DNA of 64,000 nucleotides from Nocardioides renjunii (GTDB lineage Bacteria; Actinomycetota; Actinomycetes; Propionibacteriales; Nocardioidaceae), in the NCBI RefSeq assembly GCF_034661175.1, contig NZ_CP141058.1, positions 2,666,001-2,730,000 on the forward strand, read 5' to 3'. This document shows, piece after piece, positions 54,370 to 63,304 of the stretch. The notes below the pieces were generated by a model that was not told the DNA's origin, did no database searches, and saw only the letters and a program-made list of their open reading frames with translations. The stretch's first letter is position 1. Each line of letters begins with the position of its first letter. The position numbers and the translations under genes are program-made.

Positions 54370-54939
54370 CTACCCACGCGAACGGCCCGCGAACCCCCGA
54401 CTTCCCAACAGATAGGTCCCGACCAGACCAGTCATCGCTCCCGCCGGGAACGCCACCAGCGCGGTGGAGTGCCACGGCACCCGGTCGGGATCGGGGGCGG
54501 TCAGGCCGAGGCCGCCCGGGAGCTCGGTGTAGTCGGGCTGCCCGGCGGCGAGCGCCTGCGGGTCGGCCGGGCCGAGGGAGCTGCCGACGGCGTACATCAC
54601 GACGCCCGCCAGCCCGGCGCCGACGAGGACGGCCAGCAGGGTGGCGGTCTCGTGGTGTCGCCAGAGGCCGGCCAGCACCCCGAGCAGCAGCCCGAGCGGG
54701 AACGCGATGAGGACGAACAGCGCGATGCCCTCGAACGACACGTCCGGTCCGGCGGGCTCGAGGAACCACCGGCCCTGGTAGGTCAGACCGGTCGGGGGCT
54801 CCCACAGCCGCTCCCACAGCAGGCCGGCGCCGGCTCCCGCCACCGCGAAGGCGGCCAGGACCAGCACGATCCTCCGCAGCAGGGGCCGCTGCGAGCCGAC
54901 ACCGGTGTGCTCGAGCGACTCGTGCGTCACCGTGCTCAT
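54370..54939 (-). CDS. Four-helix membrane protein coupled to dnaE
   Basis: A 189-residue membrane protein with helices at LLRRIVLVLAAFAVAGAGAG, FEGIALFVLIAFPLGLLLGV, TLLAVLVGAGLAGVVMYAVG and VAFPAGAMTGLVGTYLLG. The layout resembles DUF2567-type actinobacterial membrane proteins, but I cannot confirm the family. ATG 54939 overlaps the dnaE stop (ATGA), so it is translated with the replicative polymerase. A functional link is not evident. Confidence 0.75.
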   Translation of the reverse strand: MSTVTHESLEHTGVGSQRPLLRRIVLVLAAFAVAGAGAGLLWERLWEPPTGLTYQGRWFLEPAGPDVSFEGIALFVLIAFPLGLLLGVLAGLWRHHETATLLAVLVGAGLAGVVMYAVGSSLGPADPQALAAGQPDYTELPGGLGLTAPDPDRVPWHSTALVAFPAGAMTGLVGTYLLGSRGFAGRSRG

Positions 54940-57900
54940 CCGGTCAGGCACCCCGGTCCGAGCAGCTGCTTGAGGTCGGCGAACAAGGCGGGGCTCGGGC
55001 TCACGCGCAGGTTGTCGTCGAGGCGCAGCACCTTGGTGGAGCTGCGGGTCAGGAGCCGCAGCTGCACCTCGGTCATGCCCGGGTGGGTGCCGAGGACGTC
55101 GCGCAGCTGCGCCACGACGGGCGGCGTGCAGCGCGTCGACGGCAGGCTGATGACCACCGGGCCCGCAGGTCCCTGGGTGAGGTCGGGCGCCGTGACCTCC
55201 TGCGCCCGCAGCTCGGGCTGGTCCTTGTCGCGCGACAGGTTGCCCTTGATCCGCACGATCTGGTCCTCGACGAGGAGGGTGGAGGCCAGCGTGTAGGCGC
55301 TCGGGAACAGCAGCACGTCGATGGCGCCGTCGAGGTCCTCGAGCGTGATGGTGGCCCACGGGTCGCCGCGCTTGGTGATCTTGCGCTGCACCGAGGTGAT
55401 CAGGCCGCTGACCGTGAGGGTCGAGCCGTGGGCGCGGTCCTCGTCGAGCAGGAGCTGGCCGATGGTGCAGTCGGTGCCCTGGGACAGCACGTGCTCGAGG
55501 CCGAGGAGGGGGTGGTCGGACACGTAGAGCCCGAGCATCTCCCTCTCGTGGCCGAGCAGGGTCATCTTGTCCCAGTCGTCGATGTCGGGGATGGTCACGC
55601 TCACGCCGAAGCCGGCGTCGTCCTCGCTCAGCCCGCCGAAGAGCGAGTCCTGGCCGATCGCCTCGTTCTTCTTGAGGTCGACGAACTGGTCGACGGCCGT
55701 CTCGTGCACCGCGGCGAGCGCGCGCCGCTTGTGCTTCATGTCGTCGAACGCGCCGGCCTTGATCAGCGACTCCACGACGCGCTTGTTGCACACGAGCGCG
55801 GGGACCTTCTCCATGAAGTCGTTGAAGTCGGCGTAGCGGTCCTTCTCCTCGCGCGCGGCCACGATGCCGGCGACGACGTTGTGGCCGACGTTGCGCACGG
55901 CGGTGAGGCCGAAGCGGATGTCGTTGCCGACCGGGGTGAAGTCGGCGTGGGACTCGTTGACGTCGGGCGGCAGCACCTGGATCTTCATCCGGCGGCACTC
56001 GTTGAGGTAGATCGCCATCTTGTCCTTGTCGTCCTTCACGGACGTGAGGAGGGCGGCCATGTACTCGGTCGGGTAGTTGGCCTTGAGGTAGGCGGTCCAG
56101 TAGGTGATGACGCCGTAGGCCGCGGAGTGCGACTTGTTGAACGCGTAGTCGGAGAACGGGAGCAGGATCTCCCACAGCTTGTCGATCGCGACCTGCGGGA
56201 AGCCCCGCTCGAGCATGCCGGCCTGGAAGCCGGCGTACTGCTTGTCGAGCTCCTCCTTCTTCTTCTTGCCCATCGCGCGGCGCAGGTTGTCGGCGGCCCC
56301 CAGGGTGAAGCCCGCGAGCACCTGCGCGATCGCCATCACCTGCTCCTGGTAGACGATCAGGCCGTAGGTCTCCCCCAGCACCGGCTCGAGCGCGTCGGCG
56401 AGCGCCGGGTGGATCGGCTCGATCGCCTCGCGGCCGTTCTTGCGGCGGGCGTACTTGTTGTGCGAGTCGGCGCCCATCGGACCGGGGCGGTAGAGGGCGC
56501 TGACGGCCGTGATGTCGGCGAACGCGTCGGGCTGCAGCGAGCGCAGCAGGGACCGCATGCCCGAGCCGTCGAGCTGGAAGACGCCGAGCGTGTCACCGCG
56601 GCCCATCAGCTCGTAGGTCGCGCGGTCGTCGAAGCCCAGCTCCTCCAGGACGACCGTCTCGGCCCGGTTGACCTCGATGTTGCGCACAGCGTCGTCGAGG
56701 ATGCGGAGGTTGGACAGGCCGAGGAAGTCCATCTTGACCAGCCCGAGCGACTCGCACATCGGGTAGTCGAACTGGGTGATGACCGCGCCGTCCTGCGGAC
56801 GGGCCATGATCGGCACGATGTCGATGAGCGGCTCGCTCGACATGATCACGCCGGCGGCGTGCACGCCCCAGTTGCGGATCTGCCCCTCGAGGCCGACCGC
56901 GGTCTCGTAGATCGTGCGGACATCGGGGTCCTGGCCGTGCAGCGCGCGGAACTCGCCGCCGTCGTTGTAGCGCTTGTGGTCGGCGTTGAAGATGTCCTTG
57001 AGCGCGACGCCCTTGCCCATCACGTCGGCGGGGTAGGCCTTGGTGATCCGGTCGCCGATCGCGAAGCCGTGGTCGAGGACGCGGGCGGCGTCCTTGATGG
57101 CGGCCTTGGCCTTGAGCCGTCCGAACGTCGCGATCTGGGCGACCCGGTCGGCGCCGTACTTCTGGCTGACGTAGGTGATGACCTCGCCGCGCCGGGCGTC
57201 GTCGAAGTCGATGTCGAAGTCGGGCATGGAGGGGCGCTCGGGGTTGAGGAAGCGCTCGAAGAACAGGCCGTGCTCCAGCGGGCACAGGTCGGTGATGCGC
57301 AGCGCGTAGGCCGCGATCGACCCGGCACCCGAGCCGCGGCCGGGACCGACGCGGATGCCGTTGTCCTTGGCCCAGTTGATGAAGTCGGCGACCACGAGGT
57401 AGTAGCCGCAGTAGCCCTTCTGCGAGATGATCGCGAGCTCCATCTCGACCCGGTCGCGCACCTGCTGGTCGAGCCGCTCGCCGGGGTAGCGCGCCTCGAT
57501 GCCTCGCCACACCTCCTTGCGGAACCAGGAGTCCTCGGACTCGCCCTCAGGCACGTCGGCGCGTGCCATGTAGCCGCCGGTGGACTCGGTGAACTCGACC
57601 TCGCAGCGCTCGGCGATGGCGAGGGTGTTGTCGCACGCCTCGGGCATCCCGAACTGCTCGCCCCACAGCTGCCGCATCTCGGCGGCGGACTTGATGTAGT
57701 AGCCACCGCCGTCGAACTTGAGCCGGTTGGTGTCGGAGAGCCGCTTGCCGGAGGCGACGCAGATGAGCGCGTCGTGGGCGGCGGCGTCCTCGGGGTTGTT
57801 GTAGTGGGAGTCGTTGGTGGCGATGGGCGGGATGCCCATCTGCTTGCCGAGGCGCAGCAGGTCGTCGCGGACCCGCTTCTCGATGTCGATCCCGTGGTCC

Positions 57901-58493
57901 ATGAGCTCGAGGAACACGTTGTCGCGCCCGAAGATCTCCTGGAGCTCGCCGGCCTCGCGCACCGCCTCGTCGTACTGGCCCAGGCGCAGCCGCGTCTGGA
58001 TCGCCCCGCTGGGGCAGCCGGTGCTGACGATGAGGCCCTTGCTGTGCTCGGCGAGGATCTCCTTGTCCATGCGGGGCTTGTAGAAGTAGCCCTCCATGCT
58101 CGAGCGGGACGAGAGCCGGAACAGGTTGTGCATGCCTTCGGTGCTCTCGGCCCACATCGTCATGTGGGTGTAGGCGCCACCGCCCGCGACGTCGTTGCCG
58201 CCCTCCTCGGCCAGGTCGCCCTGGCCCCAGCGGACCCGGCGGCGCTCGCCGCGCTGGGTGCCGGGCGTGATGTAGGCCTCGATGCCGATGATCGGCTTGA
58301 TGCCGGCCCGCTTGGCCTTGCTGTAGAAGTCGTAGGCCCCGTGCAGGTTGCCGTGGTCGGTCATCGCGATCGCCGGCATGCCGAGGTCGCTGGTGCGGCT
58401 GAACAGGCCGTCGAGCAGCGACGCCCCGTCGAGCATGGAGTACTCGGTGTGCACGTGGAGATGCACGAAGCTGTCGTGTGAGCCGGCCGACAT
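54936..58493 (-). CDS. dnaE: Replicative DNA polymerase III alpha subunit, DnaE1
   Basis: An 1185-residue C-family polymerase. The PHP domain starts at residue 10 (FVHLHVHTEYSMLDGASLLD), the palm has VGPGRGSGAGSIAAYAL and catalytic MPDFDIDFDDARRGEV. The thumb/fingers, a helix-hairpin-helix and a C-terminal OB fold (LTVSGLITSVQRKITKRGD) follow. The C-terminal domain ends LKQLLGPGCLTG. Intact PHP metal ligands suggest intrinsic proofreading, as in mycobacterial DnaE1. GGAG precedes the ATG at 58493. Confidence 0.98.
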   Translation of the reverse strand: MSAGSHDSFVHLHVHTEYSMLDGASLLDGLFSRTSDLGMPAIAMTDHGNLHGAYDFYSKAKRAGIKPIIGIEAYITPGTQRGERRRVRWGQGDLAEEGGNDVAGGGAYTHMTMWAESTEGMHNLFRLSSRSSMEGYFYKPRMDKEILAEHSKGLIVSTGCPSGAIQTRLRLGQYDEAVREAGELQEIFGRDNVFLELMDHGIDIEKRVRDDLLRLGKQMGIPPIATNDSHYNNPEDAAAHDALICVASGKRLSDTNRLKFDGGGYYIKSAAEMRQLWGEQFGMPEACDNTLAIAERCEVEFTESTGGYMARADVPEGESEDSWFRKEVWRGIEARYPGERLDQQVRDRVEMELAIISQKGYCGYYLVVADFINWAKDNGIRVGPGRGSGAGSIAAYALRITDLCPLEHGLFFERFLNPERPSMPDFDIDFDDARRGEVITYVSQKYGADRVAQIATFGRLKAKAAIKDAARVLDHGFAIGDRITKAYPADVMGKGVALKDIFNADHKRYNDGGEFRALHGQDPDVRTIYETAVGLEGQIRNWGVHAAGVIMSSEPLIDIVPIMARPQDGAVITQFDYPMCESLGLVKMDFLGLSNLRILDDAVRNIEVNRAETVVLEELGFDDRATYELMGRGDTLGVFQLDGSGMRSLLRSLQPDAFADITAVSALYRPGPMGADSHNKYARRKNGREAIEPIHPALADALEPVLGETYGLIVYQEQVMAIAQVLAGFTLGAADNLRRAMGKKKKEELDKQYAGFQAGMLERGFPQVAIDKLWEILLPFSDYAFNKSHSAAYGVITYWTAYLKANYPTEYMAALLTSVKDDKDKMAIYLNECRRMKIQVLPPDVNESHADFTPVGNDIRFGLTAVRNVGHNVVAGIVAAREEKDRYADFNDFMEKVPALVCNKRVVESLIKAGAFDDMKHKRRALAAVHETAVDQFVDLKKNEAIGQDSLFGGLSEDDAGFGVSVTIPDIDDWDKMTLLGHEREMLGLYVSDHPLLGLEHVLSQGTDCTIGQLLLDEDRAHGSTLTVSGLITSVQRKITKRGDPWATITLEDLDGAIDVLLFPSAYTLASTLLVEDQIVRIKGNLSRDKDQPELRAQEVTAPDLTQGPAGPVVISLPSTRCTPPVVAQLRDVLGTHPGMTEVQLRLLTRSSTKVLRLDDNLRVSPSPALFADLKQLLGPGCLTG

Positions 58494-58584: not shown

Positions 58585-58590
58585 AGCCTA
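58585..58590 (-). promoter_or_regulatory. -10 element TAGGCT for dnaE, built on the DUF2332 stop codon
   Basis: TAGGCT on the minus strand begins with the TAG stop of the upstream DUF2332 gene (58590-58588). It would give dnaE a leader of about 85 bases with a ribosome site. The -35 region is poor. Confidence 0.35.
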
Positions 58591-59592
58591 CGACAGTGTG
58601 CCGGTCCCCACCGACAGGACACTCGACCGGTCGAGCCAGTCGACGGCGTGCCCGTGGCCGTGGCTGAGGGCCACCGGCCGGCCGTCCAGGGCGGTGACGA
58701 AGCGGCCGCTCGGCACCTCGAGGTCGCCGGTCACCCCGGGCAGCACGCGGCGTCCCTCGTTGCTGATCCACCGGCACCGCCCGGCCTCCACGAGCCCGGT
58801 CATCAGCTCGTGGAACCGCCGTCGGCCGGGCTCCTCGAGGTAGGCGATCACCGCCGAGTGCATGACGACGGGGGTGCCGTGCGCCGCCGCCTCCTCGAGC
58901 AGCCCCGGGAGGTGGTCGAACAGGTCTCCCCGGACCACGGCGGGCGGGTCCTGGGCGGCGACGCCGACGGCCGCGCGGAGCCGCTCGCGCCGCTCGTCCT
59001 GCTCGGGCCACACCAGGTTCTCCAGCCACGCCATGGCGTCGGGGTCGGCCACGTCGAGGGGGTTGAGGTCGACCCCGCCGCGCCACGCGACCACGGGGTG
59101 ACCGGCCGGGACCGGCAACGCTCCGGTCGCGTCGGCCCGCAGCACCGGGCCGCCGCTGCCCCGCAGCCCACCGAGCGGCGGCCAGTCGTAGTCGTAGCGG
59201 TCGGGGAAGAGGCACAGCCCGGCACTGGCGCCGACCTCGATGAGCGCCAGCGGGCCCTCGACCAGCCCAAGCACGGGCGTGAGCGCGGCGAGCCGGCCCA
59301 CCTCGTTGGTCTGGGTGGCCCGCGTCATCACCGTCGACCGGACGGCGGCCTCCTGCCCGAGCAGCACGCTGCGGAGCCCGGCGTACGGTCCGGGCGCGGG
59401 AGCACCGTGCCAGCGGGCGGCGGCGAAGACGAGGTTGGGCTGGCGCTTCATCGCCGGCAGGGTCCCCAGCCAGGCGAGCACCTCGTCGTCGTCGACGACC
59501 CCCAGCGCCCACTCCTCGAAGCAGGGCGAGTCGCCCGCGGCGTAGGCGGCGAAGTCTCGGTAGGCCGCGATGACGTCGTCGTGGACCAGCAC
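58588..59592 (-). CDS. DUF2332 protein (SAM-methyltransferase-like fold)
   Basis: A 334-residue protein of the actinobacterial DUF2332 family. Conserved segments include GDSPCFEEWALGVVDDDEVL, ATQTNEVGRLAAL, LIEVGASAGLCLFPDRYDYD, WRGGVDLNPLDV, and VVMHSAVIAYLEEPGRRRF. The EVGASAGL loop looks like a Rossmann-type nucleotide or SAM site, but activity is not established. The GTG at 59592 is the start. It ends in TAG. Confidence 0.88.
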   Translation of the reverse strand: MLVHDDVIAAYRDFAAYAAGDSPCFEEWALGVVDDDEVLAWLGTLPAMKRQPNLVFAAARWHGAPAPGPYAGLRSVLLGQEAAVRSTVMTRATQTNEVGRLAALTPVLGLVEGPLALIEVGASAGLCLFPDRYDYDWPPLGGLRGSGGPVLRADATGALPVPAGHPVVAWRGGVDLNPLDVADPDAMAWLENLVWPEQDERRERLRAAVGVAAQDPPAVVRGDLFDHLPGLLEEAAAHGTPVVMHSAVIAYLEEPGRRRFHELMTGLVEAGRCRWISNEGRRVLPGVTGDLEVPSGRFVTALDGRPVALSHGHGHAVDWLDRSSVLSVGTGTLS

Positions 59593-59622
59593 GGGTCCAT
59601 CCTGCCCGGTGACCGGCAGCGC

Positions 59623-60141
59623 TCAGCGCCGGACCGCGAACGGGCCACCCGGACCGGTGCCGGCGTTGCCCATCCGGATGCCGGAGAACTCCAGGCCGCT
59701 GGCCCGCACCTCCTCGAAGTGGCCGTCGAGGGCGGGCAGCACGCGCAGCTCGATGCCGTGGTCGCGGTGCAGCCCGAGCAGGTCGCCCACCTCGATCGGC
59801 GGGCCCAGCGGTGCCACCGCGTGCGTGGCGACGTGGGCGTGTGGCCGCTCCCCGAACGGCTCGAAGTCCGTGGCCGCGAAGCGGTAGGCGTACAGCGTCG
59901 TGGTGCGGATCGTGTCCGACCACGCCTCCTCCACCGCGTGGACGCGGGGCCTGGTGTCGGACCACGAGCAGACGCGGGGGCACTGCCGCGGGAACCAGTA
60001 GCAGGGCGCGTTCAGCGCGTCGACCGTCCAGACGTACGCCTCGGGCTGGCGCGCCGTCCGGGCGACGTGCGGCACGAACCGCTCGATCCCGGGGTCCTCG
60101 CTGAAGTGGAGCAGCTCTCCGGGGCGTGGCAGCACCGGCAC
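59623..60141 (-). CDS. DUF6886-family protein
   Basis: A 172-residue protein with the DUF6886 features ELLHFSEDPGIERFVPHVA, YVWTVDALNAPCYWFPRQCP, and an arginine/tryptophan-rich middle (CSWSDTRPRVHAVEEAWSD). The fold resembles ADP-ribosyl or RES-like small domains only loosely. Function is unknown. The GTG at 60141 gives MPVLPRPGELLHF. It lies between DUF2332 and the GNAT fusion, all on the minus strand but with gaps of about 30 bases. Confidence 0.8.
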   Translation of the reverse strand: MPVLPRPGELLHFSEDPGIERFVPHVARTARQPEAYVWTVDALNAPCYWFPRQCPRVCSWSDTRPRVHAVEEAWSDTIRTTTLYAYRFAATDFEPFGERPHAHVATHAVAPLGPPIEVGDLLGLHRDHGIELRVLPALDGHFEEVRASGLEFSGIRMGNAGTGPGGPFAVRR

Positions 60142-60171: not shown

Positions 60172-60888
60172 TCACTCGCGGCGCAGTGCCTCGAGCGACG
60201 CCTCGACCGACTCGGCGATGATGACGTCGACGATGCGGGCGACCCGCTCCTCGCCCAGCTCCGGCACCACCGCCGCCACCCGGCGCGCGATCTCCGCCTC
60301 CCGGCGGGGGTCACGCTCGGTGGTGGGCTTGACGAGCTGCACCGCCCGGGTGAGGGCCGTACGACGGGCGAGGACGTCGCCGAGCACGAGGTCGACCTCG
60401 TCGATCATCGAGCGGAAGCAGCCGAGCGGGTCGTGGCCGGGCCACACCAGCCTGATGTCGGGCGCCCGCTCCTCGTTGGCGGTGCCGTCGGTGCGCTCGA
60501 GGGCCACGAAGCCGTGGCGGGCGTAGAAGTCGCGAGCCGGGCGGTTGGACTCGAAGACCCACAGCCCGACCCCCTCCGGGTGGTCCGCGAGCACCCGCTG
60601 CAGCAGCAGCGTGCCGACCCCTCGCCCCTGGGCGTCCGGGTGGACGTAGAGGTCGTCGAGCCAGGTCGGCGTGGAGCGGGTGTAGCCGACCACGCGTCCT
60701 CCGGACGTCGCGACCCGCACGTCGTGGGCCGCCAGGTCCCAGCTGCGCACCCAGGCGCGTACGTCGTCGTCGGTGTGCACGGCCGGCGGGAACGCGTCGC
60801 CGGCGCCGAGGCGCGCGGCCAGGTGCACGTCCGCGACCTCGGGGAGGTCGGCGGTCGTGGCCGCGCGGAGCTCGGTGCCGGCTCGCAT
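60172..60888 (-). CDS. GNAT acetyltransferase-chorismate mutase (AroQ-like) fusion
   Basis: A 238-residue two-domain protein. Residues 5-150 form a GNAT domain with the acetyl-CoA loop VHPDAQGRGVGTLLLQRVL and late FESNRPARDFYARHGFVAL. Residues 158-236 match the AroQ chorismate mutase helix bundle: FRSMIDEVDLVLGDVLARR, LVKPTTERDPRREAEIARRV, and IIAESVEASLE. The usual arginines, lysine and DPRRE motif are present, and the terminal glutamine of E. coli AroQ is replaced by glutamate. It starts 4 bases after rluD. Fusion of these domains is uncommon. Confidence 0.82.
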   Translation of the reverse strand: MRAGTELRAATTADLPEVADVHLAARLGAGDAFPPAVHTDDDVRAWVRSWDLAAHDVRVATSGGRVVGYTRSTPTWLDDLYVHPDAQGRGVGTLLLQRVLADHPEGVGLWVFESNRPARDFYARHGFVALERTDGTANEERAPDIRLVWPGHDPLGCFRSMIDEVDLVLGDVLARRTALTRAVQLVKPTTERDPRREAEIARRVAAVVPELGEERVARIVDVIIAESVEASLEALRRE

Positions 60889-60892
60889 CGCC

Positions 60893-61831
60893 TCAGTGCT
60901 CGTCCCGGATGACCTCGAGGGCCTCGGCCAGGTCGTCGGGATAGGTCGACTCGTAGACGACGTGGTCGCCGGTCTCCGGGTGCTCGAAGCCGAGCCGCAT
61001 GGCGTGCAGCCACTGCCGCTGGAGGCCGAGGCGCCGCGCGAGGGTGGGGTCGGCGCCGTAGGTCAGGTCACCCACGCAGGGGTGCTTGAGGGCGCTCATG
61101 TGGACCCGGATCTGGTGGGTGCGGCCGGTCTCGAGGTGGACCTCGAGCAGGCTGGCGAAGCGGTGCGCCTCGAGCGTCTCGTAGTGGGTGACGCTGTGGC
61201 GGCCGTCGGCCATCACGGCGAACTTGTAGTCGTGATGCGGGTGGCGACCGATGGGGGCGTCGATCGTGCCGGCGAGCGGGTCGGGGTGGCCCTGCACCAG
61301 CGCGTGGTAGGTCTTGTCGACGGTGCGGTGGCGGAACGCGTTCTTGAGCACCGAGTAGGCGTGCTCGGACTTGCAGATCACCATCACGCCGCTCGTGCCG
61401 ACGTCGAGCCGCTGGACGATGCCCTGCCGCTCGCTGGCCCCGCTGGTGGAGATGCGGAAGCCGGCCCCGGCGAGGTGGCCGACCACGGTCGGGCCGTTCC
61501 AGCCGGGCGAGGGGTGGACCGCGACGCCGACCGGCTTGTCGATCACGACGATGGCGTCGTCGTCGTGGATGATCCGGATGCCCTCCACGACCTCGGGGAC
61601 GACCTCCAGCGGGTCGGACTCGGCCGGGATGGACACGTCGAGCATCGCGCCGCCGTGGACGCGGTCGCTCTTGCCCACCGCGGACCCGTCGACCTGCACG
61701 AGCCCCTGCGCGATCAGGTCGGCGGCACGGGTGCGGGAGAAGCCGAACATGCGCGCCATCGCGGCGTCGACGCGCTCACCGGCCAGGCCGTCGGGGACGA
61801 AGACCGTGCGCTGCTCGGCGTGGGTGCTCAT
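60893..61831 (-). CDS. rluD: 23S rRNA pseudouridine synthase, RluD family
   Basis: A 312-residue RluA/RluD-type enzyme. An N-terminal S4 RNA-binding domain (about 12-75) is followed by the catalytic domain with the aspartate in [18 protein letters not shown], plus [15 protein letters not shown]. It starts [18 protein letters not shown] at ATG 61831, overlapping lspA (ATGA). The lspA-rluD pair next to divIVA is the usual actinobacterial order. Confidence 0.95.
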
Positions 61832-62409
61832 CCGTCCGACCCGGCCGGGGCGGGGTCGCCCGCACCGGACTCCCGGCTGCCGTCGAGGGCGATGCCGCGG
61901 AACGTCTGGAGGATGATCAGCCCGGCGGCCACGTTGATGCAGATGTCGGCGACGTTGAAGACCGGCCAGTTGGGCAGCATGAGGAAGTCGACGACGTGGC
62001 CGTGCAACGGCTCGGGGTCGCGGACGAGCCGGTCGGTCAGGTTGCCGCCGACGCCGCCCAGCAGCAGGCCGAGCGCCAGGGCCCAGCCGGTGCTGCCGAG
62101 GCGGCGGCTCAGCCACAGCACGACGATGACCGCGACCACGGCCAGCCCGGTGAAGACGATCGTGAAGTCGGTGCCCGTGCTGAACGCTGCTCCGGGGTTG
62201 AAGGTCAGGTGCAGCGTGAACCAGTCACCGAGGACCGCGATGTCACCGTCGGCCAGCGCCGAGAGCGCCCACTGCTTGGAGCCGAGGTCGACGGCGTAGG
62301 CCAGCAGGGCCACGCCGGCGAAGAGCCACCGGGGGCCGAGCCGACGTCGGGCAGGACCCTCGTCGGCCTGGTCGCTGGGGTTCAGCGACGCTCCTCGCGC
62401 TGCTTGCAT
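61828..62409 (-). CDS. lspA: Lipoprotein signal peptidase (signal peptidase II)
   Basis: A membrane aspartyl protease that cleaves prolipoproteins. Four helices and both catalytic aspartates are visible: [14 protein letters not shown] and [16 protein letters not shown], with NPGAAFS between. The start is uncertain. ATG 62409 gives 193 residues and lies inside the dksA 3' end. CTG 62385 overlaps the dksA stop (CTGA) and has GAGGAG 5 bases upstream, which would remove eight extra residues. GTG 62418 is also in frame. Confidence 0.93.
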
Positions 62410-63176
62410 GACATGCACAGTGTCGCATGGGGCACCGCCATCAACCGATTCTTGCCGATGGCGTTGCCGCAGGAGTCGCAGACGCCGTAGGACCCGTCGT
62501 CGATGTGGGCCAGGGCCCGCTCGATCTGGGCGAGCGTCTCGCGCTCCTTGGCGAGCACCGTGAACTCGTGATCGCGCTCGAAGCTGGTCGCGCCGAGGTC
62601 GGCCTGGTCCTGGCCGGCGCCGTCACCGGCGTCGCGCATGAGGCCCGCCAGCTCCTCCTCGGACTGGTCCACGATGGTGGTCAGTCGCTCCTGGTGCTCA
62701 CGGAGCTCCTTGACGACCTCGTTGAGCTCGGCGCGGGTCCACGGGTCCTCGCCCTCGAGGACGACGAGCGTGGAGGGGGTGGCCTTGCGGGCCTTCTTCG
62801 CCGGCGCGGCCTTCTGGGTGGGCGCAGGGGCGGCCTTGGTCACGGGCACTGCCTTCTCGGTCGGGGTGGATGGGGTGGCGGACTTCGTCGTGCTGGTCTT
62901 CTTCGCGGGGGTCTTCTTCGCCGCAGCCTTCGTCGCCGCAGCCTTCGCGGGGGCCTTCGCGGGGGCCTTCGTGGCAGCAGCCTTCTTCGCGGGGGCCTTC
63001 GTGGCAGCAGCCTTCTTGGCGGGGGCCTTCGTGGCAGGTGCCTTCGTGGCGGCGGCCTCGGTCGTCGCAGTCTTCGCGGGAGCCGGCTCCTCGGCGTCGG
63101 AGGCCTGGCGTCCGACCACCCGCTTGGCGGCGGCCGCCGCGGTGCCGGCGAGGGACCTGCGCGTTGTGCCAGCCAT
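62382..63176 (-). CDS. DksA/TraR zinc-finger protein with histone H1-like N-terminus
   Basis: A 264-residue protein. Residues about 25-140 are a Lys/Ala/Pro/Thr-rich, H1-like tail built of repeated AKKAAATKAP units. Residues about 150-260 form a DksA/TraR domain with a coiled coil (VKELREHQERLTTIVDQSEE) and a C4 zinc finger, YGVCDSCGNAIG and [12 protein letters not shown]. DksA proteins bind in the RNA polymerase secondary channel, and the basic tail would bind DNA. The ATG at 63176 follows GGAGG. A clean promoter lies at 63229-63257. lspA is coupled downstream. Confidence 0.9.
   Translation of the reverse strand: MAGTTRRSLAGTAAAAAKRVVGRQASDAEEPAPAKTATTEAAATKAPATKAPAKKAAATKAPAKKAAATKAPAKAPAKAAATKAAAKKTPAKKTSTTKSATPSTPTEKAVPVTKAAPAPTQKAAPAKKARKATPSTLVVLEGEDPWTRAELNEVVKELREHQERLTTIVDQSEEELAGLMRDAGDGAGQDQADLGATSFERDHEFTVLAKERETLAQIERALAHIDDGSYGVCDSCGNAIGKNRLMAVPHATLCMSCKQREERR
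62961..63040. repeat. 30-base tandem repeat inside the DksA gene
   Basis: A 30-base unit (62961-62990, 62991-63020, partial to about 63036) encodes the AKKAAATKAP decapeptide. Related 15-base half-units extend upstream. The copies differ by one or two bases, which indicates recent duplication. Confidence 0.75.
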
Positions 63177-63228
63177 CTCCGCGGGCCTCCAGCCTGCTCC
63201 GGGTGTGGCGGAACCACACGGTGCAGGG

Positions 63229-63257
63229 AGGCTAGCCGTTGCGGCAGGGCCAGCCAA
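63229..63257 (-). promoter_or_regulatory. Promoter of the dksA-lspA-rluD operon
   Basis: On the minus strand TTGGCT (63257-63252) and TAGCCT (63234-63229) are 17 bases apart. The predicted start leaves a 45-base leader with GGAGG before the ATG at 63176. Confidence 0.65.
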
Positions 63258-63280
63258 CTCAGGCTCGCCGAAATGCGAGA

Positions 63281-63304
63281 ACGACCACCCCAAGGGGCGG
63301 TCGT
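63281..63304 (-). terminator. Terminator hairpin of divIVA
   Basis: ACGACC, one mismatch and CCCC pair with GGGG and GGTCGT around an AA loop, 28 bases after the divIVA stop. It separates divIVA from the dksA promoter. Confidence 0.7.

Follow-up and report, generated by a model that had tools for sequence, protein, structure and literature searches.

The gene on the minus strand at positions 60172 to 60888 of the window, the 64,000-nucleotide stretch of the Nocardioides renjunii chromosome analysed here, encodes a GNAT acetyltransferase joined to an AroQ-type chorismate mutase domain, and sequence comparison confirmed that this single open reading frame is a true fusion. The two halves, AroQ and GNAT, are under equally strong purifying selection, and the fusion is not the housekeeping chorismate mutase. 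There is about an even chance, judging by analogy with known AroQ fusions, that the AroQ tail is a domain that senses chorismate or prephenate and controls the acetyltransferase. Both halves belong to known families; no description of their combination, or of its selected distribution linked to the AroH mutase, was found in the open-licence PMC literature. The features were as follows.

60172..60888, minus strand: GNAT-AroQ fusion gene, 238 aa, ATG start, intact open reading frame (Pfam; 103 intact homologues aligned)
60439..60888, minus strand: GNAT acetyltransferase half, aa 1-150 (PF00583/PF13508; AF2 model matches GNAT chains)
60613..60630, minus strand: acetyl-CoA loop QGRGVG, aa 87-92 (sequence; G90 in 102/103 and G92 in 103/103 fusions)
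60196..60432, minus strand: AroQ (CM_2) half, aa 153-231 (PF01817; three predicted helices; profile match to 1ecm)
60298..60312, minus strand: DPRRE, aa 193-197 (alignment to 1ecm; D193, R196 and E197 correspond to D48, R51 and E52 of the E. coli enzyme, EcCM)
60337..60339, minus strand: Q184, at the EcCM Gly36 position (Q in 102/103 fusions; a near-invariant mark of the subfamily)
60893..61798, minus strand: rluD-type pseudouridine synthase, 4 bases upstream of the fusion gene (Pfam S4 and PseudoU_synth_2)
54936..58493, minus strand: dnaE, conserved downstream neighbour (Pfam; synteny)

The fusion of a GNAT protein to a chorismate mutase-like domain had been proposed in a first-pass annotation, and both domains were found above the Pfam cut-offs in the 238-aa protein: PF00583 (GNAT) at 6.6e-14 over aa 40-127, and PF01817 (CM_2) at 3.1e-9 over aa 159-229, scoring 37.4 bits where the curated cut-off is 27. 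In NCBIfam the GNAT and chorismate mutase models both matched below cut-off only, and of three matches in PHROGs, two were to acetyltransferases and the third was of unknown function. The CM_2 match is not due to chance, since CM_2 was matched by every one of 43 divergent AroQ halves from fusions when each was scanned alone, and E. coli chorismate mutase (1ecm) was the top PDB match, at 3.8e-6, for a profile of the AroQ halves. The motif of the GNAT acetyl-CoA loop is Q/R-x-x-G-x-G/A; the loop was intact, as the annotation had stated, and the fusion protein probably attaches acetyl groups. A sequencing or annotation artefact was ruled out by the 103 intact homologues and by equal dN/dS in both halves. 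The nearest named record, from Nocardioides sp. zg-1308, was 99% identical.

The AF2 model of the full protein (13 sequences) had a pLDDT of 87.5, with a very sure GNAT half and an AroQ half at about 75, in which helices were predicted at aa 154-186, 194-207, and 213-237. The GNAT half matched GNAT chains with VIA Z scores up to 19.2 (aa 3-151, rmsd 2.0, 141 aligned), and such chains filled the matches of a structure search with the whole model. Folded alone as an AF2 monomer, the AroQ half was again predicted to form three helices in order (pLDDT 80.9, pTM 0.45). A Foldseek search of this monomer against the PDB returned 33 rows, none of them significant (best E 3.1). VIA did list chorismate mutases, but amid unrelated helical rows of equal Z; its rows include 6al9 (Z 5.8, rmsd 3.8 over 78 aligned residues) and 5vht (Z 5.5, rmsd 1.8 over 48). 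AroQ mutases are described in the accessible part of PMC10520331 as intertwined dimers, so a model of one chain tests this fold only weakly.

Residues of the chorismate site were counted in 103 intact fusions, drawn from 105 sequences fetched of the 106 genomes with a PF01817 match. Two sequences were left out, G118 with a decayed tail and G103 with a frameshift, and the one genome outside the 105 was G331, from the same species as the window. Alignment to 1ecm placed R159, R176, K187, D193, R196, E197, and S227 at EcCM R11, R28, K39, D48, R51, E52, and S84. R159, R176, R196, and E197 were present in all 103 fusions, D193 in 102, K187 in 101 (Arg in the other two), and S227 in 99, and the six charged residues occurred all together in 100 of the 103. 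Sixteen of the 77 AroQ positions were near-invariant, including six of the seven site positions tested (hypergeometric p 2e-4). The charged residues that the first-pass annotation had read in this sequence were therefore borne out across the relatives, and the expectation that the key contact residues would appear in an alignment held for these six and for Ser84, but the Gln88 position is lost in every fusion: position 231 was Q or E in 0 of 103 (A in 62, S in 21, others in 20). The reported DPRRE motif is present, and RD-x-x-RE is its conserved core across relatives, while the P and the first R vary. At the EcCM Gly36 position the fusions have Gln (102/103), as opposed to Gly in all 13 aligned stand-alone Nocardioides AroQ proteins. 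The Arg-Gly dyad at the C-terminus of AroQ-delta was not conserved at positions 230-232 of the 103 fusions.

The loss of Gln88 can be read in two ways. Replacing it with Ala costs EcCM a factor of 2x10^4, as given in the accessible part of PMC4281200; the same text describes a mycobacterial chorismate mutase that lacks equivalents of Ser84 and Gln88 and is yet active with its partner, so the loss is no proof of lost catalysis. The stand-alone AroQ of the genus has His at position 88, so whether the fused domain is active does not follow from the missing Gln88 by itself. About 100 related species keep the substrate-binding residues, so the probable role of the tail is to sense or convert a metabolite central to aromatic metabolism.

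A survey of co-occurrence, which the first-pass annotation had suggested, found the fusion in 105 of 190 genomes, in Nocardioides and four sister genera. The 190 consisted of 147 genomes of the genus Nocardioides and a second set of 43 chosen from an order-wide search, which supplied every one of its 35 new fusion genomes together with 8 that have GNAT only. Every one of the 147 genus genomes had some match, 138 at E 4.9e-16 or better and the other nine weak, and comparison of coordinates located PF01817 in the fusion gene in 71. A scan of genome contigs gave 54 loci, and both halves were matched in 11, all from Nocardioides. Among 391 genomes of the order, at least 76 had a match that reached profile position 230 or beyond, among the matches listed (to E 5e-46); all of these listed matches were in the window's family and at least 14 were in four other genera. 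We take this family, from named database records and general knowledge, to be Nocardioidaceae. Among 394 genomes of the class, 59 matched at 1e-30 or better and 13 reached position 230, all from the same family; class matches outside it all ended by position 176, and the one ending at 176 has an internal stop. GNAT-only orthologues are thus widespread in the class, so the AroQ half was added in situ: the GNAT gene is old and broadly distributed, and only some Nocardioidaceae have acquired the AroQ half.

The rluD gene lay upstream, in the same orientation, in all of 110 loci compared first and in 169 of 170 in a larger comparison, where the sole exception (G329) belongs to another family, and dnaE was downstream in most of the 110 loci by synteny. 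The tailed and tail-less genes behind rluD are positional orthologues; the GNAT-only orthologue has the same locus and GNAT core as the fusion and differs in the lack of the AroQ tail. Downstream of the fusion gene in this genome come DUF6886, DUF2332, and then dnaE, all on its strand. The two DUF genes lie at 58588-60141 of the window, and many relatives lack one or both, in which case dnaE comes directly after the fusion locus. A second GNAT-AroQ copy, about 41% identical over its length and with several in-frame stops, was found in the Nocardioides genome G129 (contig C1, 6067-6750) and is likely a pseudogene of a duplicate.

Close relatives compared in 20 disjoint pairs gave a median dN/dS of 0.18 for the AroQ half and 0.19 for the GNAT half, and mean column entropy over 69 sequences was 1.04 bits and 1.23 bits, respectively. 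There were 37 near-invariant GNAT positions in fusions and 30 in GNAT-only orthologues, with 26 common to both. With so many of these positions in common between tailed and tail-less proteins, the substrate of the acetyltransferase seems not to have been changed by the tail. The suggestion that the GNAT half modifies a chorismate-derived amine gained no support, as 26 of the 37 positions are also kept in the AroQ-less orthologues.

Analysis of the other chorismate mutases showed which enzyme does the housekeeping work. The window's genome has one PF01817 match, the fusion gene itself, and one PF07736 (AroH) match, whose open reading frame overlaps the prephenate dehydrogenase gene by 8 bases. 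PF01817 alone had suggested that the fused AroQ is the sole mutase of the genome, and this was refuted by the AroH beside prephenate dehydrogenase. Among the 147 genus genomes, those with the fusion had AroH alone in 67 cases, AroH and a stand-alone AroQ in one (G047), and neither in two (G076 and G128, 89% and 77% complete); one more had a decayed fusion and a stand-alone AroQ (G118). Those without the fusion had AroQ alone in 49 cases, AroQ and AroH in 4, AroH alone in 21, and neither in 2. In the second set, 35 of 35 fusion genomes had AroH and 0 of 35 had a stand-alone AroQ; of the 8 GNAT-only genomes, 6 had AroQ without AroH and 2 had AroH only. When the sets were pooled, the 105 genomes with an intact or near-intact fusion included 103 with AroH and one with a stand-alone AroQ, and the two without AroH were incomplete genomes. 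The 85 with no fusion or a decayed one included 60 with AroQ and 27 with AroH. DAHP synthase type was rejected as a cause of fusion presence or absence, because type II was found in 146 of the 147 Nocardioides genomes and the type is the same with or without the fusion.

The stand-alone AroQ of Nocardioides is likely the housekeeping mutase where it occurs in the genus; in 49 of the 147 genomes no other mutase was found. Over 72 columns it is 35% identical to the fusion AroQ (hhalign E 1.2e-9), but it has Gly at position 36 and occurs mostly where AroH is missing. The 30 loci listed (L086-L115) have His at EcCM Gln88 and Val at Ser84, and there is no AroQ-delta Arg-Gly dyad although the DAHP synthase is type II.

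Genomes in which AroH has given way to a stand-alone AroQ carry either no tail or a decaying one. Among all 61 genomes with a stand-alone AroQ, 60 were in this state. The recognisably decaying tails (G118, G062, G082, and G213) were all in genomes with a stand-alone AroQ and without AroH, and that of G118 has lost the pocket Arg and Lys. The tail of G079 is decayed although AroH is present, that of G103 is cut by a frameshift, and 23 genomes have AroH with neither a stand-alone AroQ nor a tail. A Fisher test on the raw counts gave p 8e-17 for the fusion association, a value that ignores relatedness. Trees were built from RluD and GNAT, with 110 rows in the first and 165 in the second, which left out three gappy sequences (G105, G141, and G329) and two long or poor ones (G070 and G023) and in which G103 was uncounted and G118 coded as not fused. 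On these trees the fusion state changes 12 or 13 times, few of them on supported branches. There were 4 supported independent pairs on the first tree and 5 on the second, too few for significance either way; AroH differed in about 1.9 of the 5 pairs, all in the same direction (opposite 0.0; sign test median p 0.5). The link to AroH is therefore strong in raw counts but, with so few supported changes, no more than suggestive in evolutionary terms.

B. subtilis has AroH and, fused to its DAHP synthase, an AroQ domain that shows minimal catalysis and for which a regulatory role has been proposed; both the substrate and the product of the mutase inhibit the synthase (PMC5526877, in its accessible part). 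The sensor reading was chosen for the Nocardioidaceae fusion because the same division holds: AroH does the mutase work and AroQ keeps its site on another enzyme. The joint retention of the six charged residues, the matching dN/dS of the two halves, the AroH that overlaps prephenate dehydrogenase and is present in 103 of 105 fusion genomes, the absence of Q or E at position 231 given the cost of Gln88Ala, and the decay of four tails in genomes without AroH all argue for it. According to this reading, the AroQ half would pair with a second copy and form the usual two-chain pocket, which would bind chorismate, prephenate, or both with little or no catalysis, as position 88 lacks Gln. The bound state would alter the activity of the GNAT half and tie acetylation to flux into Phe and Tyr. 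The sensor would work like the AroQ domain on the DAHP synthase of Bacillus and Listeria, but on an unrelated enzyme. It agrees with the ligand-sensing module proposed, as predicted from the sequence, in the first-pass annotation. Against it stand the decayed and frameshifted tails of G079 and G103, the 23 AroH genomes that live without a tail or a stand-alone AroQ, the GNAT-only orthologues that function without such a regulator, and the AroH link itself, which after correction for relatedness depends on 5 supported pairs, with AroH different in about 1.9 of them.

The main rival is that the AroQ half is an active second chorismate mutase beside AroH, merely carried on the GNAT protein, with Gln184 of helix 1 in place of the lost Gln88. 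This is distinctly less probable, and was kept because the fused tail and the stand-alone AroQ almost exclude each other, a pattern that redundancy would explain as well. In its favour, the six charged residues are kept along with Ser84, and the coupled change from Gly36 to Gln and from Gln88 to Ala, Ser, or others is fixed in the subfamily. However, the fusion is never the sole mutase in a complete genome, the Gln88Ala substitution is costly in EcCM, G047 keeps the fusion, AroH, and a stand-alone AroQ together, and the pointing of Gln184 into the site is predicted from sequence. A role for the AroQ half as a dimerisation or stability module for GNAT only, also raised in the first-pass annotation, would fit the intertwined dimers of AroQ mutases and the tolerated loss of the tail, but it is improbable: the charged residues of the pocket rank with the best-conserved positions, and surface or core contacts are not expected to hold R11, R28, K39, D48, R51, and E52 together, so that their retention in 100 of 103 fusions would be left unexplained. 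It is very improbable that the AroQ half regulates type II DAHP synthase by docking on it, in the manner of mycobacterial AroQ-delta, with GNAT as a passenger, for although that synthase is nearly universal in the genus and no AroQ-delta mutase was seen there, the synthase type does not follow the fusion and the Arg-Gly dyad, invariant in AroQ-delta and located at the synthase interface (PMC4281200, accessible part), is not conserved in the fusions.

Comparison with known enzymes places the fused domain near the fused AroQ domains of DAHP synthase in Bacillus subtilis, Geobacillus, and Listeria, which likewise keep the charged chorismate-site residues (PMC5526877, accessible part). The differences are that the partner here is a GNAT protein and that the AroQ half is C-terminal; moreover, the fusion has lost the Gln88 equivalent, kept there as Gln86, and has kept the Ser84 equivalent, which is Gly82 there. 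Like the mutase domain of E. coli PheA (1ECM, AroQ-alpha), the fusion has the equivalents of R11, R28, K39, D48, R51, E52, and S84; unlike it, the fusion lacks Gln88, has Gln for Gly36, and has a partner enzyme outside the pathway. AroQ fusions with TyrA and PheA have been described (PMC1173090, accessible part), and in the portions of the literature available the partners are enzymes of the shikimate or aromatic pathways: DAHP synthase, prephenate dehydratase or dehydrogenase, and cyclohexadienyl dehydratase. GNAT and chorismate mutase genes acquired by nematodes are the subject of PMC4828791, and no description of a GNAT-chorismate mutase fusion was found in the open-licence PMC literature.

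If the sensor reading is right, the AroQ fold would have been taken up as a sensor serving a different type of reaction, in a selected fusion across five genera, and aromatic flux would be wired directly to acetylation. More tentatively, AroQ may be a portable sensor outside the shikimate pathway through which a GNAT protein answers to chorismate or prephenate, kept only with AroH and discarded once a stand-alone AroQ takes over. The same locus with an intact, decaying, or absent tail is a natural experiment on such a role. Elsewhere in the window, positions 62382-63293 encode a DksA/TraR zinc finger that follows a long stretch of Lys/Ala/Pro-rich repeats resembling histone H1.
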